Virus record (IMG/VR): IMGVR_UViG_3300020167_000008
Coordinates: 1 to 20,981 of that record
DNA length: 20,981 nt
Source: a virus
Strand: one strand, 5' to 3'
Shown here: positions 7,071-20,981 of the stretch, piece after piece
How the letters are laid out: every line of letters starts with the position of its first letter
How positions within the stretch are numbered: position 1 is the first letter of the stretch
Notes under the pieces: model-generated
The model's database searches: none
Told to the model about the DNA's origin: nothing
What the model saw: only the letters and a program-made list of their open reading frames with translations
Program-made: the position numbers and the translations under genes

Positions 7071-8645
7071 CTACGATTCGGGTTGGACGCTTTCGGTGGC
7101 CTCAGTAGTCAAGTCTCCTGCTTGTACCGGCCCGCAAGCGCGTGTTGCTGCGCGTGAGTCGCCCTTGAGGAACACAAGGACATTCTGATGCGACTTGCCC
7201 AACTTGCGGGATACATCAAACTGTTTGCCGACACGCAGGATCAGAGATGCCAGGTTTGTTACAAGGATGGCCTCGTTATACAAGGTAAGTCCTGCGTCTT
7301 GAAAAGCGCTGATCGTGTCGGAAACAAAGTTGCGGTAGTTGCCGTCGGGTCCACGGAAGTCCCCGACGACGATAACAGCGAACCGATCATCCTTCAGCAT
7401 CTTTGTTGACCTATCAACTATCTGCCGGAATGACTCAATAAAAGTTGAGTAATCCATAGTTGAAAGATCGCGTGGATCATCTGAATACACTTCAAGATCA
7501 CCGTAAGGCGGACACGAAAACCACAAATCTGCTTCCAACCCCGGACACAAAGCCTGCGCGTCGGCACCGTCGCCAGCGACCCAGACCGGAGTCGGCGACG
7601 GCGCTAAAATTACCGACGGTCGAATAGCGCTGACCCATAACAAATCGCCCGACTGCAACGTCGGGATGCACTTTGCCTCATACCACGGGTCCAACTGCAC
7701 CCCACGGAACACTGTGACCGCTGCCTCATCATGGTAATCAGACGGGTGATCCACAATTGTCACCATGTCACGCCATCCGGGTGGTGCGTGCCTCTCAAGG
7801 CGTTCTAAGGGGGGGTGGCCGACACAGACACCAACTACCGGGATATTCCTCCCCGCTTCAACTAGACCCCATAGGATGCCCGCTAGGGTCATTCCTGAGC
7901 CGACACTGTTCACAATACGCTCAACGCCTTCAGGGATGTTCGCAACCTGTGGTTTCGTGAACTGCACCGCTTCCGGCGCTTCCATCCCATACGGGATCTC
8001 AACCCAACCGGACTCCACCGCATCCTCACGCGCACGCGCAACGATCACCGTGTTGTACCCCGCCTGATGTTGGATCAAGTCGCAACCCGCTCCACGCGCA
8101 GCGACAAGCTCCGGTGTGAGGTCGCCCGACGGGACATGCGCCCGACATTTCACACCTAACGCTGCTGCAATCTGAGCCACAAAATTCACTTGAGGTGATT
8201 GCCGTGACCCCGCCGTGATAACCCCCACGCCCTGTTCACGCGCACGCTCAACAAGAAGCATACAAGTCCGCACTTTCGCGCCCCTCACCCCACCGAAAAC
8301 GTAATGATCTTCACGTTTCAACCAGATGTCGCCATGAGTTTCGACAGGAGTGAGATCAGGCATGTGATCCGGCGGGACATCCGGCACGAAAGACAACCCG
8401 CCCGCACAAAGCGTGTCGCCTTGCAACCTGTTCGCTTCGACCTGTTCCGGTCGAACGTCAATCCCCGTGTACTCCCGACCCAACTTGGATGCAACAACAC
8501 CCCGCACACTTCCACCGGCGAACGGGTCCAACACTTGACCGCCCGGCGGACAAAACCACCTGTAAACAAGCTCACATAAAACCGGGTCAAACAGCGAAGT
8601 CGAACCCGCACCGTATCCTTCACCTTGGATTTCGACTTCAGCCAT
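7071..8645 (-). CDS. DNA methyltransferase with inserted PLP-enzyme-like domain
   Basis: 524 residues. Residues 1-75 and ~350-500 together make an amino-methyltransferase of the phage type: FDPVLCELVYRWF then motif I DPFAGGSVRG (40-49) and GIDVRPEQVEANR; motif IV SCPPY (377-381), SDDPRDLSTMDY, and the C-terminal GKQFDVSRKLGKSHQNVLVF. An SPPY-like catalytic motif suggests N4-cytosine or N6-adenine methylation. Between motifs I and IV, residues ~90-343 resemble fold-type II PLP enzymes (ACC deaminase / D-cysteine desulfhydrase group): DIWLKRED, candidate Schiff-base Lys124 in GVRGAKVR, SRQSPQVNFVAQIAAALG (148-164) and a phosphate-loop-like SVGSGMTLAG (247-256). The start overlaps the ParB-like gene by 8 nt, so the two are co-expressed. 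The PLP chemistry is inferred; it could be a non-catalytic recognition insert. Confidence 0.85.
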   Translation of the reverse strand: MAEVEIQGEGYGAGSTSLFDPVLCELVYRWFCPPGGQVLDPFAGGSVRGVVASKLGREYTGIDVRPEQVEANRLQGDTLCAGGLSFVPDVPPDHMPDLTPVETHGDIWLKREDHYVFGGVRGAKVRTCMLLVERAREQGVGVITAGSRQSPQVNFVAQIAAALGVKCRAHVPSGDLTPELVAARGAGCDLIQHQAGYNTVIVARAREDAVESGWVEIPYGMEAPEAVQFTKPQVANIPEGVERIVNSVGSGMTLAGILWGLVEAGRNIPVVGVCVGHPPLERLERHAPPGWRDMVTIVDHPSDYHDEAAVTVFRGVQLDPWYEAKCIPTLQSGDLLWVSAIRPSVILAPSPTPVWVAGDGADAQALCPGLEADLWFSCPPYGDLEVYSDDPRDLSTMDYSTFIESFRQIVDRSTKMLKDDRFAVIVVGDFRGPDGNYRNFVSDTISAFQDAGLTLYNEAILVTNLASLILRVGKQFDVSRKLGKSHQNVLVFLKGDSRAATRACGPVQAGDLTTEATESVQPES

Positions 8646-11038: not shown

Positions 11039-11298
11039 GCTTGCTCGGCTTCTGCTCGCTCGGCTTCGCCTTCTTCTACTAGGACGAGGATGTGGTTGCA
11101 TCGGGATGGACCGCCGCCGAACTCGGCTGTTCCAACGAATAGCTCAACGAGCTGATCGTCGGTCATGTTGTCATCTGCTGTGTTGTAATGCAGTCCTGCT
11201 AGGCAGGCCATGACCTCATAGTGGATGAGGGTGAATCCGGTGAAGCCGGGGTAGTCACAGTTGATGGTTGTCATTCTGCTTGCTAGTGGTTCATTCAT
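11035..11298 (-). CDS. Small unknown acidic protein
   Basis: 87 residues from ATG 11298. This start is chosen because the promoter -10 ends 7 nt upstream, giving a leaderless transcript; the longer frame would include the promoter. The sequence has a hydrophobic middle (FTLIHYEVMACLAGLHYNTA), an acidic segment (DDNMTDDQLVELFVG) and an Ala/Glu C-terminus (EEGEAERAEAEQA). No known domain. The spread of three Cys residues is not a clear metal site. Confidence 0.65.
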   Translation of the reverse strand: MNEPLASRMTTINCDYPGFTGFTLIHYEVMACLAGLHYNTADDNMTDDQLVELFVGTAEFGGGPSRCNHILVLVEEGEAERAEAEQA

Positions 11299-11305
11299 GT
11301 AGACT

Positions 11306-11334
11306 ACCCTACTACACGGGTGTGACATTATCAA
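11306..11334 (-). promoter_or_regulatory. Leaderless promoter with TGTCACACC box
   Basis: Reverse strand: -35 TTGATA (11329-11334), 17-nt spacer, -10 TAGGGT (11306-11311), then 7 nt to the ATG. The spacer carries TGTCACACC (11319-11327), exactly 7 nt from the -10, a box shared with four other promoters in the window. A GAAAAGAATC element lies upstream near 11347-11356. Confidence 0.65.
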
Positions 11335-11356
11335 ACCAGAAACCAAGATTCTTTTC

Positions 11357-11404
11357 GACACCAGGGTCGTGCGACCCGACCCCAGTCGCCGACCGTGCGA
11401 CCGC
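11357..11404. repeat. GTCG/CGAC palindromic intergenic repeat
   Basis: Contains GGGTCG-TG-CGACCC, a perfect 6-bp palindrome, then CGACCCCAGTCGCCGACC, a phrase repeated with variation upstream of other promoters in this phage. It lies just upstream of the leaderless promoter at 11306-11334 and behind the end of the 11464-11685 gene, so it could terminate one unit and regulate the next. Confidence 0.55.
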
Positions 11405-11463
11405 TAACTGATCTTGAGTTACCCGGCTCACAGTTCGTGATCTCCTTTGGTCCAGGGTCGGGT

Positions 11464-11685
11464 TCAGGCTCGGCGGGCTTCACGCATTTCGTGCAGCAGG
11501 GCAGAGGCACGCATCATTGTGTTGAGGTCATCTTGTGTGAAGTTGCTTTGGCCTGAGAATGCCATGCCGGTTAGTTCGGTTGCGGCGGCGGTGAGGGCGT
11601 TGGCTGTGAGCTGAAGTTCTTCATCAGTCAAGCGGGCTGAGGTTGAGGAGAACTCTGTGTTGTTGTGGGTGCCGGTAAGGTTCAT
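11464..11685 (-). CDS. Small unknown helical protein
   Basis: 73 residues, ATG at 11685, with the -10 box TACAAT ending 6 nt upstream: a leaderless start. After a polar N-terminus (MNLTGTHNNTEFSSTS) the sequence is helical and Ala/Leu-rich (LTDEELQLTANALTAAATEL, then DDLNTMMRASALLHEMREAR). It appears to be a single-gene unit flanked on both sides by GTCG palindrome arrays. Function unknown; a small helical regulator or inhibitor is possible. Confidence 0.66.
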   Translation of the reverse strand: MNLTGTHNNTEFSSTSARLTDEELQLTANALTAAATELTGMAFSGQSNFTQDDLNTMMRASALLHEMREARRA

Positions 11686-11691
11686 GTCTTT

Positions 11692-11719
11692 ATTGTAGCA
11701 CGCCGGACTACAATATCAA
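11692..11719 (-). promoter_or_regulatory. Leaderless promoter
   Basis: Reverse strand: -35 TTGATA (11714-11719), 16-nt spacer, -10 TACAAT (11692-11697), followed 6 nt later by the ATG at 11685. A GAAAAGAAATC element lies upstream at about 11742-11752. The TGTCA box of the other promoters is absent here. Confidence 0.62.
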
Positions 11720-11762
11720 GTCAATATCAAACAAATATGAGATTTCTTTTCGACCCCAAACC

Positions 11763-11800
11763 CGGTCGCCCGACCCCAGTCGTTGCGACTCCGGCGACCG
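11763..11800. repeat. Nested GTCG/CGAC inverted repeat
   Basis: An 8-bp outer stem, CGGTCGCC (11763-11770) with GGCGACCG (11793-11800), encloses a perfect 5-bp inner hairpin AGTCG-TTG-CGACT (11778-11790). It lies downstream of the 11828-12073 gene on the reverse strand and upstream of the next promoter, as in the other arrays. No U-tract follows, so a classical intrinsic terminator is not shown. Confidence 0.6.
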
Positions 11801-11827
11801 CTGACCGGTCTTGCGAGTTGCCCCCGC

Positions 11828-12073
11828 TTACCCTGCGAGAATCTCGGCGTGAATCACGCACGCTTCAAGGTAAGCGGCTTCAAGCGTTGAGTACATGCCG
11901 TATGACTCTCCTGCTCCGCCAGGTCGGAAAATGGCGATCTGGTATCCGCTCGGTCGGGGAAGGATCAGGATGCGTTCGCCGTTCTCTATGTTGGCATTCC
12001 ACCAGATCGCGCGTGAGGTGCTGCTGTGGCGTTGCCCTGTTGATGTGATCCGGGTGAACTCGGGTGGGGTCAT
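11828..12073 (-). CDS. Small unknown protein
   Basis: 81 residues with AGGAG 5-6 nt before the ATG at 12073. It reads as a compact alpha/beta protein: a Ser/Thr/Arg-rich N-terminus, then IENGERILILPRPSGYQIAI and MYSTLEAAYLEACVIHAEIL. The strand-strand-helix pattern resembles small unnamed phage proteins. It is the last gene of a five-gene reverse operon that starts at 12869. Function unknown. Confidence 0.65.
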   Translation of the reverse strand: MTPPEFTRITSTGQRHSSTSRAIWWNANIENGERILILPRPSGYQIAIFRPGGAGESYGMYSTLEAAYLEACVIHAEILAG

Positions 12074-12876: not shown

Positions 12877-12905
12877 ACTATACAGCATAGGTCTGACATT
12901 ATCAA
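12877..12905 (-). promoter_or_regulatory. Leaderless promoter with TGTCAGACC box
   Basis: Reverse strand: -35 TTGATA (12900-12905), 17-nt spacer, -10 TATAGT (12877-12882), then 7 nt to the ATG at 12869. The spacer begins A-TGTCAGACC (12890-12898), again 7 nt from the -10. A GAAAGAAATC element lies at about 12927-12936. This is the best-formed member of the family. Confidence 0.72.
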
Positions 12906-12935
12906 GTCAATAATCAAGAAAGTTTAGATTTCTTT

Positions 12936-12990
12936 CCGACCACCCCGACAGTCGCACGACTCCCAGTCGGCGACAAGCCGATTCGACAAC
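12936..12990. repeat. GTCG/CGAC repeat between operon and terL
   Basis: Contains AGTCG-CA-CGACT and TCGGC-GACAA-GCCGA hairpins and a CCCAGTCGGCGAC phrase matching the other intergenic arrays. It lies between the divergent reverse operon and the large terminase gene. A TAGCAT box follows, ending 7 nt before the terL GTG, so terL may also be leaderless. Confidence 0.52.
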
Positions 12991-13002: not shown

Positions 13003-14574
13003 GTGGAACCACTAGTCATCATCCCCCCAGAGCTACTAGCACTCGCCACCGACCACGAACGAGAGCAGTACCGGCTCTACCTCCTAGACGCAGCCGTCGA
13101 AACAGACGAGTGGGAAACGTGGCTCATGTCGATGGCACCCAACTACGCGTCGCTCCCGTTCGGAGATCATCACGCGCTGTTCTGGAATTGGGCGTGGAGT
13201 ATCGAACCCGACGCGCGCCCTCAACCATTCGTAGCGATATGGCCGCGAGGCGGGGCAAAGAGTACAAGCGCTGAGATGTGTGTCGTAGCGTTAGCCGCAC
13301 GACGCAAACGCAACTACTGCCTGTACGTTTCGGAGACACAAGATCAGGCAGACGATCATGTCGCCAACATTGCTGCGCTCCTCGAAGATACAGAAGTCGG
13401 GTTCGCATACCCTGAACTTGGTTCTCGGCTCATGGGTAAGTTCGGATCAGTGAAGGGGTGGCGGCGTAACCGTGTCCGCACAGGAACGGGTTTCACGATT
13501 GACGCTGTAGGGCTTGACTCCGCCGCACGAGGAATCAAGTTGGAAAGTATGCGCCCCGACCTGATGGTCTTTGACGACATCGACAGCGAAGCCGATTCCC
13601 CTCTCGCTACAGACAAGAAGATCAGAACCATCACCCGGAAGCTTCTCCCGGCAGGGTCCAACTATTGCGCAGTGATCGCTATTCAGAACAAGGTCCACGA
13701 TGACTCCATCTTCGCGAGGCTTGCCGACGGTCGGGCTGATTTCCTACGCGACCGGATTGTGTCCGGGCCTATACCCGCCGTGTGGAACTTTGGTTGGATC
13801 GAAGAAAACGGGTTGTTCAAGATCGTTGACGGCCAGGAGTCGTGGGAAGGGCAACCCGTATCCTCGTCGCAAGCGCTCCTCAACGACATCGGGCTAACAG
13901 CGTTCCTCGCTGAGTGCCAACACGCCACCGTCACGATGACCGGCGGGATGTTCGACCATATCAACTGGCCGCATTTGCATGTCACCGAAGCCGAGTTACC
14001 ACTGATGCGTCGGGTGGTCGTCTGGCTCGACCCAGCCGTTACGTCGACCGACCAATCCGACTGTCAGGGTATTCAGTGTGATGGGCTAGGTGTTGATGGT
14101 CTGATTTACAGGTTGTGGTCGTGGGAAGGTAGGACGACACCGTTGGATGCTGTGAAGCGTGGTATCCGTGCGGCGATTGAATGGAACGCTGAGACAATAG
14201 GCATTGAGTCGGACCAAGGGGGCGACACCTGGAAGGCTGTGTATCACCAAGCGTGTGAGAGTTTGCGTGACAGTAAGGAACTTGAGGGATCAGCTCCGAG
14301 GTTTGCTTCTGCGAAAGCCGGTGCGGGTCACGGGTCGAAAATGACAAGGGCGCAAAGGATGCTTGTCGATTATGAGCGGGACAAGATTCGACACCTAGTC
14401 GGTACGCATCAGCAGTTGGAACTTGGGTTGATGCGTTTCCCGAAAGCCAAACCGTATGATCTTGTCGATGCTGCGTATTGGTCGTGGGCCGACCTAGCGG
14501 GCAAAGCGTACCGGGGGAAGTCTCGGGTTGGTTCTGCGTCGGGTCAAACCATCGGCGCTTTCAACTTCAACTAG
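13003..14574 (+). CDS. terL: Terminase large subunit (ATPase and nuclease)
   Basis: 523 residues starting at GTG 13003; TAGCAT ends 7 nt upstream, and no ribosome site is seen, so it is probably leaderless. N-terminal ATPase: Walker A-like PRGGAKST (81-88) and Walker B VFDDID (189-194), followed by coupling segments. C-terminal RNase H-like nuclease: WLDPAVTSTDQSD with Asp343, IGIESDQGGDTW near 399-410 and KPYDLVDAAYWSW with Asp486 and Asp489, which fit the metal-binding acidic residues. It translocates DNA into the prohead and cuts concatemers, working with the small subunit at 10131-10628. The length is normal. Its 3' end overlaps the convergent gene by 4 nt. Codons drift from C/A-ending to G/T-ending after about 14050. 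Confidence 0.93.
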   Translation: MEPLVIIPPELLALATDHEREQYRLYLLDAAVETDEWETWLMSMAPNYASLPFGDHHALFWNWAWSIEPDARPQPFVAIWPRGGAKSTSAEMCVVALAARRKRNYCLYVSETQDQADDHVANIAALLEDTEVGFAYPELGSRLMGKFGSVKGWRRNRVRTGTGFTIDAVGLDSAARGIKLESMRPDLMVFDDIDSEADSPLATDKKIRTITRKLLPAGSNYCAVIAIQNKVHDDSIFARLADGRADFLRDRIVSGPIPAVWNFGWIEENGLFKIVDGQESWEGQPVSSSQALLNDIGLTAFLAECQHATVTMTGGMFDHINWPHLHVTEAELPLMRRVVVWLDPAVTSTDQSDCQGIQCDGLGVDGLIYRLWSWEGRTTPLDAVKRGIRAAIEWNAETIGIESDQGGDTWKAVYHQACESLRDSKELEGSAPRFASAKAGAGHGSKMTRAQRMLVDYERDKIRHLVGTHQQLELGLMRFPKAKPYDLVDAAYWSWADLAGKAYRGKSRVGSASGQTIGAFNFN

Positions 14575-16314: not shown

Positions 16315-16358
16315 TCTGTACTCCTTGTCCTGTTGGGCTGTGTTGCCCTACCCCCATG

Positions 16359-16387
16359 AATGTAGTTGATGGTCATACAGAATGCAA
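16359..16387 (-). promoter_or_regulatory. Promoter with upstream GAAAAGAAATATC box
   Basis: Reverse strand: -35 TTGCAT (16382-16387), 17-nt spacer, -10 TACATT (16359-16364). The spacer contains TGTATGACC, a looser version of the common box. The A-rich element lies at 16408-16420, inside the 3' end of the upstream gene. Confidence 0.55.
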
Positions 16388-16395
16388 GTCAATAA

Positions 16396-16653
16396 TCAAG
16401 ATTGTTTGATATTTCTTTTCAGGCGCTCCGACTTCCAGAAGTCGCCTGACCGAACATCACAACCATCAGTCAACCGTTGAGCAATCCGAATCACCCGCTC
16501 CATCTCACGCACCATCTCCGGCCCGCACTCAATCGCCGCTTGCGGATACTCGTCAGGATTATTAGCAAGCTCCTGAGTAGCCTTCACCATAAAGTCCAGG
16601 GCTAGGAGCCATTGCTGCGCAGGCGTGTAGTTGCTGCTGATTAGATCACTCAT
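16396..16653 (-). CDS. Small unknown helical protein
   Basis: 85 residues; ATG 16653 shares one base with the upstream stop (TAATG) and has GGAGGAG before it. The sequence is helical (TPAQQWLLALDFMVKATQEL, then GPEMVREMERVIRIAQRLTD) with a basic tail (SERLKRNIKQS). The 3' end encodes a 7-bp perfect DNA hairpin (CGACTTC-CA-GAAGTCG), so coding sequence and an intergenic-type repeat overlap here. Function unknown. Confidence 0.65.
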   Translation of the reverse strand: MSDLISSNYTPAQQWLLALDFMVKATQELANNPDEYPQAAIECGPEMVREMERVIRIAQRLTDGCDVRSGDFWKSERLKRNIKQS

Positions 16654-17056: not shown

Positions 17057-18043
17057 ATGGCAAACCACACAGACATCACAATCCTCGGCAACGGCGGCAG
17101 CGCCCACGCAACAGAAAACCTTGAAGGCCCCGTTCCCTTTGACCGGGTACGCGAGCTGTTCAACTTCAACGTGGAGTACACACCCCTCTACACACAAAGC
17201 TCACACGAGTACGCAAGTGAGATGGTCAAGCTCAACAACCGTCAAGCAATTCGCCGCACCGATACCGGCATGGTTCTCAACACCGTTTCCAAGTCTCACG
17301 GCTTGCACCAATTCCGTGATGTACTCGTTGACAACCTGTTTACTCTCTTGGATGCGTCCGAGACTGACCTTCAGGTTTCAGGTGCGGGCCTGCTGAAGAA
17401 CGGCGCTGTGGGTTGGGTTCAGGTTCAGGCACCTTGCTTGGAAGCCGGTGAGGGTGACGTTGCACCAACGCTCACGCTTGCATCCTCGCATGATGGTTCG
17501 CTTGCCACTAGCTACCGGGTGGGCATGTTCCGCTTCATCTGCTCTAACCAGATTGGCGCTCTACGCCGTAACAGCAAGAACGTGTTCAAGTTGCGGCACA
17601 CGCTCAACTCGGCAATGAACTTCACAACCGCCCGGAACACTCTTGGTCTGATGTGGAATCAGGCGGAGTCTTTCAACGCTGAGGTCAACACCCTGATTGA
17701 AACCTCGGTGAGCGACGCAGAGTTCTACCGGATCGTGAATCAGTTGGCTCCTATGCCTCCTGAGTCCGCAACCGAGGCTGCTCGCACTCGTTGGGAGAAC
17801 CGTGTTGAGTCCGTGTCAAACATCTACCGCAACGATGAGCGGGTAGGTGACTTCCGTGGAACCGGGTGGGGAGTTGTGCAGGCGTTCAATACTTACCGTC
17901 AGCATGAGCGCCCGTTCCGTGCGAACGGCACCGCCGGAACTACGTCACGCCTTGGCCGCACGATGGGTGACTTCCTCTCGGGAGCGATTGACCTTGACGA
18001 TCAGAAGGTAACCGCCGCCGTGTTCGCCGAGGTTTCCCGCTGA
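17057..18043 (+). CDS. DUF932 domain protein
   Basis: 328 residues, with AAGGAG 7-8 nt before ATG 17057. The layout matches the DUF932 / phage-plasmid-like family: an N-terminal opening on substrate-like turns (LEGPVPFDRVRELFNFNVEY), VNDNLFTLL-type strands, then YRVGMFRFICSNQIGALRRN, KLRHTLN and a helical C-terminal half. Members occur widely on phages and plasmids; the biochemical role is not established, though links to DNA metabolism have been suggested by context. Here it leads into a ParB-methyltransferase gene, from which a strong hairpin separates it. Codons are balanced and highly regular, suggesting good expression. Confidence 0.82.
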   Translation: MANHTDITILGNGGSAHATENLEGPVPFDRVRELFNFNVEYTPLYTQSSHEYASEMVKLNNRQAIRRTDTGMVLNTVSKSHGLHQFRDVLVDNLFTLLDASETDLQVSGAGLLKNGAVGWVQVQAPCLEAGEGDVAPTLTLASSHDGSLATSYRVGMFRFICSNQIGALRRNSKNVFKLRHTLNSAMNFTTARNTLGLMWNQAESFNAEVNTLIETSVSDAEFYRIVNQLAPMPPESATEAARTRWENRVESVSNIYRNDERVGDFRGTGWGVVQAFNTYRQHERPFRANGTAGTTSRLGRTMGDFLSGAIDLDDQKVTAAVFAEVSR

Positions 18044-18080: not shown

Positions 18081-18101
18081 GACACCCCTGAAAGGCGTGT
18101 G

Positions 18102-19697
18102 ATGACTTCTAATATCCTTGACGGTCTAAGGCCCCTGGTTGTCCCTATAGGCGACGTTAAACAGATGGCGGGTAATCCTCGCAGAGGCGACGTTGACTCT
18201 GTTGCTAAGTCACTGAAACGCTTTGGGCAGCACAGGCCGATAGTGGTTCAGCAGGCAACCGGCGAGATCCTCATTGGCAACCATACGCACAAGGCTGCGG
18301 TGAAACTCGGGTGGACTGAGATCGCTGTCCTCTATACCGACGACGACCGGGAAACGGCGGTGGCCCGATCCCTCGCCGATAACCGAACACATGACTCAGG
18401 CAAATACGACAACAACGAATTGGCTTCCCTCCTTGCCGAACTATCCGAAGTCGATTCATCTCTCTCGCTCGACGCAGGATTCCAGGCTGATGAGATCGAC
18501 GCTTTGCTCCGGCTGACCGCACCTAAAGTTGAAGAACCCGTTGTACCGAAACCGGTTAAAGCTGATCCGCCTAAGCAGACTGTTCGCAAACCTGAGAAAC
18601 AGGTTGTTGAAACCTTCGCTTATACGGGTGAGCCGGGGGAGTCACAACTACTCCTCGGGGATTGCCTATCTGTAATGTCAGAGATACCGGACAACACTTT
18701 CAATTCGTGCATCACCGACCCGTTCGGCGGGATAGCACCTAAAGGGGTTCGCACTGATGCAACGGGCTTTGATGCGGATGAGTGGAAAAGCGTTCCCGGT
18801 CCTGCGTTCTGGTCGGAAATCAACCGTGTTGTGCGACCTGGCGGGCATGTGGCAATCATTGCTTCCACTAAGTCATTCCACCGGGTAGCGGTAGCCGCCG
18901 AGGAAGGCGGGCTAGAGCTGAGAGACACGCTGATGTACCTGTATACGACAGGCATGACTGACGGGATCGACATTGGGCAATCAGTTGACCGGTTGCACGG
19001 GGGTAAGGGGCAACCGTATTTCAAGAACGCTAACGCTATGGGTGACTCTGAGCGTGAAGCGTGGAAGCAAGCAGATCCCGACAACGAGTGGTACGGGTTT
19101 TCGACGGCGTTGAAGCCTGCGTGGAAACCGATCCTGTTGATGCGCAAACCTCCTAAGCAGTCTGCTGCGAAGTCTGCTGAACAATGGGGAACGGCTGTTA
19201 TGAACATTGACGGTTGCCGGGTCGGCGAAGAAGAACGTGATTCGATTACGAGTTATCGGAACAAGCCGGAGGGTGATGAGCATGGGGCGGCGCTAGGCAA
19301 GAGGAGTTTGGTGACGGGGACAACGACGTTAGGGCGGTGGCCTTCTAACGCAATCGTTGATGAGTCCGTGGCCCTGGAACTTGGTCAGACTGCCCGCTAC
19401 TTCTTGTGCGCCTACGCGTCGAAGCGTGAGCGTAACGAGGGGTTACCTCCGGGGGTTGAGAATGACCACCCGATAGTTCGACCTGTGGCGTTGATGAAGT
19501 GGCTTGTTCGTCTTCTGAACCCGGCGGGCGGCGTTGTGCTTGATCCTTTCTGTGGGACGGGTACAACGGGCGTTGCTGCTGTTGAAGAAGGGATGGGGTT
19601 TGTTGGCATTGACCGGAACGAGCGTTGGGTTTCGGAGATCGCTGAACACCGGATTGCTTATGCACGCTCGGAGCAGATGAAGAAGGTGAAGCGATGA
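18102..19697 (+). CDS. ParB-like domain fused to DNA methyltransferase
   Basis: 531 residues from ATG 18102, with GAAAGG 6-7 nt upstream (a GTG one codon earlier is possible). Residues ~12-110: ParB/sulfiredoxin domain (NPRRGDVDSV, FGQHRPIVV, GEILIGNHTHKAAVKLGW, SLADNRTHD). Residues ~140-170: Pro/Lys-rich linker. Residues ~180-525: beta-class amino-methyltransferase, with motif IV first, then a target-recognition region (GFSTALKPAWKPILLMRKPP, then RWPSNAIVD, then HPIVRPVALMKWLVRL) and motif I DPFCGTGTTG (481-490). Motif IV reads DPFG (206-209) where family members have DPPY, so catalysis may be altered. It probably methylates phage DNA. The downstream zinc-finger gene overlaps by 4 nt. Confidence 0.9.
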   Translation: MTSNILDGLRPLVVPIGDVKQMAGNPRRGDVDSVAKSLKRFGQHRPIVVQQATGEILIGNHTHKAAVKLGWTEIAVLYTDDDRETAVARSLADNRTHDSGKYDNNELASLLAELSEVDSSLSLDAGFQADEIDALLRLTAPKVEEPVVPKPVKADPPKQTVRKPEKQVVETFAYTGEPGESQLLLGDCLSVMSEIPDNTFNSCITDPFGGIAPKGVRTDATGFDADEWKSVPGPAFWSEINRVVRPGGHVAIIASTKSFHRVAVAAEEGGLELRDTLMYLYTTGMTDGIDIGQSVDRLHGGKGQPYFKNANAMGDSEREAWKQADPDNEWYGFSTALKPAWKPILLMRKPPKQSAAKSAEQWGTAVMNIDGCRVGEEERDSITSYRNKPEGDEHGAALGKRSLVTGTTTLGRWPSNAIVDESVALELGQTARYFLCAYASKRERNEGLPPGVENDHPIVRPVALMKWLVRLLNPAGGVVLDPFCGTGTTGVAAVEEGMGFVGIDRNERWVSEIAEHRIAYARSEQMKKVKR

Positions 19698-19861: not shown

Positions 19862-19942
19862 GTCGGAGTGTCGCCCGACTTGCGTCGGCGACTGGGGTCG
19901 GTTGTGTCGACTTGGGTCGGTCGACTCTGGTCGTGCGACCGA
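19860..19942. repeat. GTCG/CGAC palindrome array after the methyltransferase operon
   Basis: Begins at the stop codon of the zinc-finger gene with a perfect 7-bp hairpin AAGTCGG/CCGACTT (19860-19866 and 19875-19881), followed by GTCGGCGACTGGGGTCGG, the inverse of the phrase seen at 11357-11404 and 16833-16905, and ending with GGTCG-TG-CGACC. It may terminate the operon; no U-tract is present. The structure is in the same relation to the next promoter as elsewhere. Confidence 0.58.
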
Positions 19943-19963
19943 ACACACGTTCCAATTTACTGT

Positions 19964-19977
19964 GTGACAAGTGTCAC
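19964..19977. promoter_or_regulatory. Palindromic operator candidate
   Basis: Perfect inverted repeat GTGACA-AG-TGTCAC. Each half equals the TGTCAC core of the box found in the promoters of this phage. It lies just upstream of the RNA promoter, so the factor that reads the boxes may bind here as a dimer. Confidence 0.5.
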
Positions 19978-19998
19978 AAAGAAATATGCCATTTGGGG

Positions 19999-20027
19999 TT
20001 GTGAATGTCAGACAGGTGTAGTACTCT
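19999..20027 (+). promoter_or_regulatory. Promoter of the long non-coding RNA
   Basis: -35 TTGTGA (19999-20004), 17-nt spacer, -10 TACTCT (20022-20027), with the box TGTCAGACA (20006-20014) 7 nt from the -10, and AAAGAAATAT at 19978-19987. The layout equals that of the reverse-strand leaderless promoters, down to TATCTACAT after the -10, but here no open reading frame follows. Confidence 0.65.
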
Positions 20028-20177
20028 TATCTACATAAGGAAGTGAGCAACAAGAACCGGAGAAACAACCGGGGGCGAATCGCAGCAAGACGCACAAAGC
20101 GTGTAGCGGGTTCCGGGTGACACACCACCTACAAGGAAATGTGAAGGTTGCACACTCAGCAACAGAAACAGCGAGTG

Positions 20178-20290
20178 CTAGTTAGATTCTGTTTGATACC
20201 AGAAGACGATTGAAGTGCATGAAGTAGCCCTCGGGTGTAAGCCTTCCTCTCCTAAGACATCCTCAGTACGGCTTCCTCAACAGTAACTAG
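20178..20290 (+). repeat. Duplicated RNA domain, copy 1
   Basis: Closed by CTAGTTA (20178-20184) with TAACTAG (20284-20290). Inside: hairpin TTCTG/CAGAA (20187-20204), the shared GACGATTGA, a GAAG/CTTC pairing (20212-20215 with 20272-20275), and a hairpin GCC-CTCG-GGT in GTAGCCCTCGGGTGTAAGCC. Confidence 0.65.
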
Positions 20291-20294
20291 AATG

Positions 20295-20413
20295 ACTCAA
20301 GTTGAAACTTGCGGTATCGGACCCAAGACGATTGAGGTGACCAAGTAGCCTTCGGGCGTAAGCCTTGCTCTCCCAACACATCCCTAGTACGGCACCTCCG
20401 CAGCAACTTGAGT
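20295..20413 (+). repeat. Duplicated RNA domain, copy 2
   Basis: Closed by a perfect 10-bp stem ACTCAAGTTG (20295-20304) with CAACTTGAGT (20404-20413). Inside: hairpin CTTG-C-GGT / ACCCAAG, the shared GACGATTGA, GAGGTG/CACCTC (20334-20339 with 20393-20398) and a GCC-TTCG-GGC tetraloop hairpin. Roughly three quarters identical to copy 1 over ~85 nt, offset 120-122 nt. Confidence 0.65.
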
Positions 20414-20709
20414 TGATTCACCACGGGTCAGGATTCGGTGTTAGTCCGATGAACCTACTTGCAGCAGATGCGGAAACGGGGCAATTTCAATCAGCCATCC
20501 GAAACGCCGCTCCAACTAGGGATCAGCTTCAGAGTTCTGACTCGTGATGATTCAAATAGCTAAGTGAGAATCAGTCAGGTTGCGAGAAGTCTCCAACAGG
20601 ATTCAGATAATCAAGCGGTGAACGACATGGCACCAGAATAGAGCTGATAGATCGGAAACGGTTGAAGGCTTGAGCTTCAGTGGACCTGAGGATGGACTGA
20701 GTTGTAAAG

Positions 20710-20747
20710 GATCAGCAGACTTCAAGTGATCTTGCTGGTTCTCTCTT
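20710..20747 (+). terminator. Terminator of the long RNA
   Basis: CAGCA (20713-20717) pairs with TGCTG (20733-20737), extended by A-U and G-U pairs on the outer side, with a small ACTT-C-AAGT hairpin in the loop, followed by a U-rich tract GGTTCTCTCTT. This is the clearest intrinsic-terminator-like site in the window. Confidence 0.5.
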
Positions 20748-20798
20748 AGCTAGTTGATTCATCAGTAAAAAGAAATATCAAATAATCTCTGTTTCGAT

Positions 20799-20827
20799 TT
20801 GCACGCTGTAGTCACATCGGCTACTGT
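20799..20827 (+). promoter_or_regulatory. Second rightward promoter
   Basis: -35 TTGCAC (20799-20804), 17-nt spacer, -10 TACTGT (20822-20827), with the A-rich box AAAAGAAATATCA at 20768-20780 as upstream of the other promoters. No start codon with a ribosome site follows within the window. Confidence 0.55.
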
Positions 20828-20833
20828 CTTGTG

Positions 20834-20981
20834 TGTGGAGGGGCAACAACTTCACAACAGCAACTTGAAAACAGAGTCAAAGTATTGAGCGCCACATAGG
20901 TTGCTCGCAGGGATTAAGTAAGAACCTTACTGAGTGTGCGAATGAGTCCACACGGGTACATGACTACCCGCAAAGGTCAAA
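20834..20981 (+). other. Start of a second possible structured RNA
   Basis: 148 nt with no plausible gene, downstream of a promoter and running off the window. Contains AGCAAC/GTTGCT, GAGC/GCTC, a perfect GTAAG-AAC-CTTAC hairpin, GTGTG/CACAC and a perfect CGGGTA-CATGAC-TACCCG hairpin. It may be the beginning of another non-coding RNA or an unusually folded leader; no tRNA signature is seen. Confidence 0.4.

Follow-up and report, generated by a model that had tools for sequence, protein, structure and literature searches.

The closest described systems are GOLLD and ROOL (Rumen-Originating, Ornate, Large), RNAs with a phage setting and ornate folds that assemble into cages made solely of RNA, whose function is unknown (PMC12286853). 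ROOL assembles as an ordered RNA nanocage. Giant phage RNAs of this type are a standing puzzle, with intricate folds, RNA-only particles, and no known job. OLE is a large structured bacterial RNA with known OLE-associated proteins, according to references cited in the same article. The DNA analyzed here (the window) spans an entire IMG/VR contig (G000; 20,981 bp), which is a linear fragment, and contains the noncoding region RNA1 (Table 1). On balance, we favor the explanation that an actinophage-like virus encodes large structured noncoding RNAs in a tandem array, that RNA1 is the first unit of this array, and that it may act as a scaffold.

Like GOLLD, RNA1 has a phage setting, a length of >700 nt, and a predicted ornate multidomain fold with a conserved and a variable part (PMC12286853). 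However, the 3' region of GOLLD is universally conserved and its 5' region less so, whereas in RNA1 conservation lies in the 5' ~380 nt, and it is the 3' part that is exchanged between phages. GOLLD is also often, though not obligatorily, located near tRNA islands, whereas none was found here, and here several different RNAs occur in tandem. The phage setting, a size of 0.6 to 0.7 kb, and a complex fold are shared with ROOL (PMC12286853), but the locus has no tRNA island, and the different RNAs of a single phage exchange domains. OLE is similar in being large and structured but differs in that no Rfam match was obtained here. At gathering thresholds, no Rfam family, including GOLLD and ROOL, matched the window or its relatives, and the GOLLD and ROOL covariance models gave no match in the RNA regions at E values up to 10. 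The suggestion in the initial annotation that RNA1 is a divergent GOLLD or ROOL was not supported, there being no covariance-model match in the tests run and no tRNA in searches of the window and a 67.5-kb relative. The likeness to these RNAs is of kind and not of family. The alternative suggestion, a new class, found support, with the correction that several different large RNAs in tandem, rather than one RNA, make up the unit.

TABLE 1 Positions of RNA1, its predicted elements, and the adjoining start of RNA2 in the window
Feature	Start	End	Strand	Description
RNA1 promoter	19978	20027	+	Read by eye from sequence; UP-like AAAGAAATAT 19978-19987; -35 TTGTGA 19999-20004; N17; -10 TACTCT 20022-20027
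RNA1	20035	20766	+	First large RNA of the array; noncoding; homologues in L006, L003, L005, L007, L012, and L015
RNA1 5' hairpins	20057	20113	+	Pairing prediction only; CCGG 20057-20060/20069-20072; GAAUC 20077-20081/GGUUC 20109-20113; inner ACGC 20090-20093/GCGU 20099-20102
RNA1 domain 1	20178	20290	+	Closing helices nearly or fully invariant in relatives; closing helix CUAGUUA 20178-20184/UAACUAG 20284-20290; further helix CUGUUUGA 20189-20196/UCAACAG 20277-20283
Repeat copy r1	20193	20280	+	Model R1, 105.7 bits; r1 in training set
RNA1 domain 2	20295	20413	+	Closed by perfect 10-bp helix 20295-20304/20404-20413
Repeat copy r2	20315	20401	+	Model R1, 100.5 bits; r2 in training set
r2 covarying stem	20342	20367	+	Compensatory changes among copies and relatives; CAAG 20342-20345/CUUG 20364-20367; GCC 20348-20350/GGC 20355-20357, UUCG loop
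RNA1 3' domain	20422	20546	+	Closed by CACGGGUCAG 20422-20431/CUGACUCGUG 20537-20546
RNA1 extra domain, 207 nt	20560	20766	+	Long imperfect helix, arms 20545-20592/20717-20764; missing in L006
RNA2 promoter	20766	20827	+	Read by eye; 88 to 94% conserved in relatives; UP-like AAAGAAATATC from 20769; -35 TTGCAC 20799-20804; N17; -10 TACTGT 20822-20827
RNA2 start	20834	20981	+	Interrupted by window end; 94% identical to L006

Querying IMG/VR with DNA patterns and two neighboring proteins yielded a limited set of phage contigs. Those with RNA1 are L004/L006 (a single contig that shares 99.9% identity with the window across 12 kb), L003, L005, L007, L008/L015/L024, and L012/L018/L025, and its start alone is visible at the contig end of L011/L014. 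Other RNAs of the set were found in L014, L016, L017, L020, L022, L026/L019, and L036. All of these sequences represent one small phage clade with fragmentary contigs, giving 4 to 9 rows per alignment. No match to the RNAs was found in L030, L031, L033, L034, and L035, which have related terminases, in cultured-phage DNA by distant DNA search, or in GTDB genomes probed by the repeat-element pattern and by the terminase. L047 to L049, picked up by an 18-mer of RNA3a, were discarded, the similarity being limited to those 18 bases. Literature searches, which covered open-access papers, found none in which these RNAs are described.

Neighboring genes encode a DUF932 protein (17057-18043) and a putative terminase large subunit (13003-14574; 23 to 25% identity to annotated terminases; no match in a Pfam search). 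The relatives of the DUF932 protein in cultured phages (~30% identity) are mostly from actinophages, and L014 has a PF06737 (transglycosylase-like) gene, suggesting that the host of the RNA-carrying phages is likely an actinobacterium.

That the RNA1 region has no believable reading frame was borne out. The longest stop-to-stop frame has 61 codons, the homologues differ from one another by single-base indels, a codon-based gene caller predicts no gene, and a search for a conserved coding frame across the region found none. The gene caller is crude, so gene-free gaps were not counted as RNA without fold evidence. The promoter of the phage's own family proposed upstream was also recognized by eye, and its elements make a start at ~20034-20035 plausible. 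A similar -35/-10 arrangement is present 5' of RNA1 in L012 and L015, the promoter/start block of RNA1 in L003 shares 27 identical nt with the RNA4 promoter block in L014, and similar blocks also precede other RNAs and protein genes of the window. The RNA1 promoter was missed by a generic sigma-70 scan because this requires 9 of 12 matches, and a regular-expression scan was too strict to inform. The RNA2 promoter is ~80% identical to 16376-16419 on the minus strand, upstream of a small minus-strand gene. Promoter-like intergenic repeats resembling the RNA promoters were also seen at 11706-11763, 12902-12946, and 16330-16420 (minus strand).

The 3' end had been placed near 20747, at a hairpin followed by a U-rich tail, giving a unit of ~710 nt, and this did not hold. 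The terminator scan reported none near 20747, the U-rich stretch is part of the 3' strand of the long helix of the extra domain, a second promoter follows, and the relatives continue into RNA2 and RNA3. In relatives with RNA1, noncoding DNA runs past the position of the window end, with arrays of 2.0 to 2.4 kb; the noncoding stretch is ~2.5 kb in L006 (8806-11282) and similar in L003 (6368-8885). Split at the promoter-like blocks, the arrays consist of RNA1 (~0.53 to 0.73 kb), RNA2 (~0.8 to 0.95 kb), and a third unit, RNA3a or RNA3b (~0.65 to 0.8 kb). The RNA2/RNA3a boundary has a promoter in L008 and L022 and no recognizable one in L006. The units are not separated by any terminator that could be seen, which makes read-through likely, and the arrays close with hairpin-T terminators outside the window (at ~8845-8890 in L003 and ~10933-10975 in L006).

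The structure of RNA1 rests on repeat comparison and a few helices, since its 5' half is too conserved to covary among orthologues and its fold energy is ordinary. Identity to L003 is 96% over the 5' 387 nt, compared with 84% for the DUF932 gene, 76% for the terminase gene, and 70% for the upstream DNA. Owing to this high conservation, orthologues of the 5' half showed no covariation (0 to 1 double-changed pairs). In L003, the GGUUC arm of the 5' hairpin reads GAUUC, a one-sided change that preserves pairing. The many hairpins and nested stems of the initial annotation were upheld in part: one perfect helix of at least 10 bp was observed in RNA1 (0.17 expected), and the region 20422-20981, comprising its 3' half and the RNA2 start, is predicted to be far more stable than its shuffles, on the plus strand only (z of -7.8 in the sense and -0.2 in the antisense direction), but the whole RNA1 fold is mildly unusual (z of -1.75 and -1.27 in two runs) and 19862-20421, comprising its 5' half, is ordinary (z about 0).

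A ~90-nt element occurs twice in RNA1, each copy closed by its own helices, and recurs in L014, where one copy lies within an RNA3b insert and another within RNA4. Model R1 scores these at 71.8 and 64.7 bits, respectively, but its training set consisted of the very copies concerned, the L014 ones included. Over nine rows, C-G is replaced by G-C, A-U by U-A, and C-G by U-A in the element stem without loss of pairing, and GCC-UUCG-GGC becomes GUC-GAAA-GAC in relatives, with the GAAA loop in L003, L007, and L012. The covariation score, 0.421 versus 0.216 in shuffles, was reached by 0 of 500 shuffles, the counts resting on few independent events. An alternative GGGC-GUAA-GCCU hairpin was rejected, as it is disrupted in the L003-type r2, whereas compensatory changes maintain the GCC-UUCG-GGC hairpin. 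The apparently unpaired stretches of the element are very strongly conserved.

In RNA3a (alignment A4, four sequences), 98.7% of the cells of 192 consensus pairs are paired, and 11 pairs are double changed versus 4.4 in shuffles (0/500), with at most two when the partners were slid. For RNA2 (alignment A5; 158 pairs, 97.5% paired), there were 17 double-changed cells versus 8.5 in shuffles (0/500) and 10 double-changed pairs versus 7.3 (25/500). The preference for the RNA3a and RNA2 structures over slid controls is to be read with the structures having been derived from those same alignments. Column shuffling in 160-column windows gave minimum z values of -8.6 (RNA3a) and -4.3 (RNA2), and values near zero for the DUF932 and terminase coding controls. 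Single-sequence fold z values were -4.4 and -5.5 for RNA3b, -4.5 for RNA4, and -7.5 for RNA2 plus RNA3a, versus -0.3, -0.3, and +1.7 for coding controls. Covariation in the RNA3b core was not above background; its closing helices have 14 to 16 bp. An excess of GNRA/UNCG tetraloops was unconvincing relative to coding controls. Sequence analysis thus shows the region to be noncoding and constrained, with compensatory changes in RNA2, RNA3a, and the RNA1 element. The locus thus has the attributes of a large structured noncoding phage RNA (>500 nt, noncoding, covariation above controls, and a phage genome), as initially annotated on the strength of RNA1, for which covariation was found only between the repeat-element copies; strand-specific fold stability and conservation add to this.

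Comparison of the relatives also shows that domains closed by long predicted helices have been gained, lost, or swapped as whole units. The window shares its type of RNA1 3' domain with L006 (where it is closed by CUGACCCGUG, a perfect 10-bp helix), whereas L003, L007, L012, and L015 have an unrelated type, and both types are closed by a long helix. The 207-nt domain of the window is replaced by a short stem in L006 (around 9503), a clean presence/absence difference with imperfect inverted repeats at the flanks. The RNA3b insert in L014 (~205 nt), which contains the RNA1 element, is closed by a 15-bp perfect helix. A piece of RNA4 resembles 5' sequence of the L022 RNA2 unit, and in L022 an RNA3b domain comes after RNA3a. 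We consider it reasonably probable that the mutually different giant RNAs (RNA1, RNA2, RNA3a/3b, and RNA4; ~0.5 to 1.0 kb each) are built from shared plug-in domains that pass from one RNA to another, as in a modular toolkit, and constitute a new phage RNA class outside all described families. The phage group offers several giant RNAs per genome, unrelated in sequence to GOLLD and ROOL, in which domains have been inserted, deleted, and swapped naturally. Such variants, for example, of the 207-nt domain, provide ready-made comparisons concerning the importance of domains, the generality of oligomerization, and shared partners.

The serial rigid modules, the conserved repeat loops, the units' own promoters, and the lack of an evidently controlled gene make a trans-acting architectural RNA the best inference. 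An array of structured, trans-acting RNAs is very probable; a scaffold or assembly-type function is put forward tentatively. Phage sigma-70-type promoters before the units would drive transcription, and read-through would give one transcript of ~2.0 to 2.4 kb plus shorter ones. The RNAs may then act in trans as architectural scaffolds, each a chain of rigid modules, with conserved loops, including the doubled element of RNA1, binding a shared partner or other RNA copies in an assembly that would resemble the GOLLD and ROOL particles.

The main rival explanation, which we regard as rather unlikely, is that the RNAs are decoys or sponges, with conserved loops that mimic a nucleic acid and sequester either a host factor or a defense protein. 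The presence of several RNAs per phage, the resemblance of their promoter blocks to those of small protein genes, and the conserved, apparently unpaired stretches of the element would suit such a role. However, at the gathering level, the Rfam search revealed no similarity to any family, including CRISPR repeats, tRNA, rRNA, and tmRNA. Nor was a short sequence common across the RNAs: no 8-mer was present in at least four of them, so that no common binding site was identified, and shared short motifs were not above shuffles.

A cis-acting leader or regulatory RNA governing the next gene would likewise have a promoter and a structured 5' region, and in L006 another promoter and a similar short leader precede a protein gene after the array. 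Yet the arrays stop at terminators, and the RNAs adjoin different genes in different phages: RNA4 adjoins a peptidase gene in L014, and RNA3b, at a separate locus in L014, L015, and L012, adjoins the terminase gene, which it faces on the opposite strand. This makes regulation in cis improbable. A ribozyme or self-splicing RNA with an unknown catalytic activity is more doubtful still: a large, multidomain, compact fold is predicted here, but no Rfam ribozyme or intron was matched and the surrounding genes are uninterrupted. Least probable of all is a DNA-level element (an origin or a site of packaging or recombination), its repeats and palindromes merely mimicking RNA structure: there are direct and inverted repeats, and one array is near the terminase gene, but fold stability is strand specific (z of -9.8 versus -2.8 in G001), G-U pairs, compensatory changes, and the exchange of a UUCG loop for GAAA are consistent with pairing in RNA, and promoters and terminators flank the units.

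Apart from the array, some regions had unusual fold energies, each estimated from only eight shuffles. The plus strand of 11262-11894 in the window (z of -4.1; small minus-strand ORFs only) is possibly a further structured RNA, and L041:13343-13983 and L042:7267-7793 in the 67.5-kb relative (z of -4 to -5; no long ORF) are candidates for extra RNAs. Between the DUF932 gene and RNA1, the stretch 18099-19697 (plus strand) shows weak ParB-N-like similarity and, after this, an N6/N4 DNA methylase match; it is present in the window and L006 and missing there in L003. One ORF at 7071-8645 (minus strand) matches both PALP (a PLP-dependent enzyme family) and N6/N4 DNA methylase, an unusual pairing in a single phage protein.
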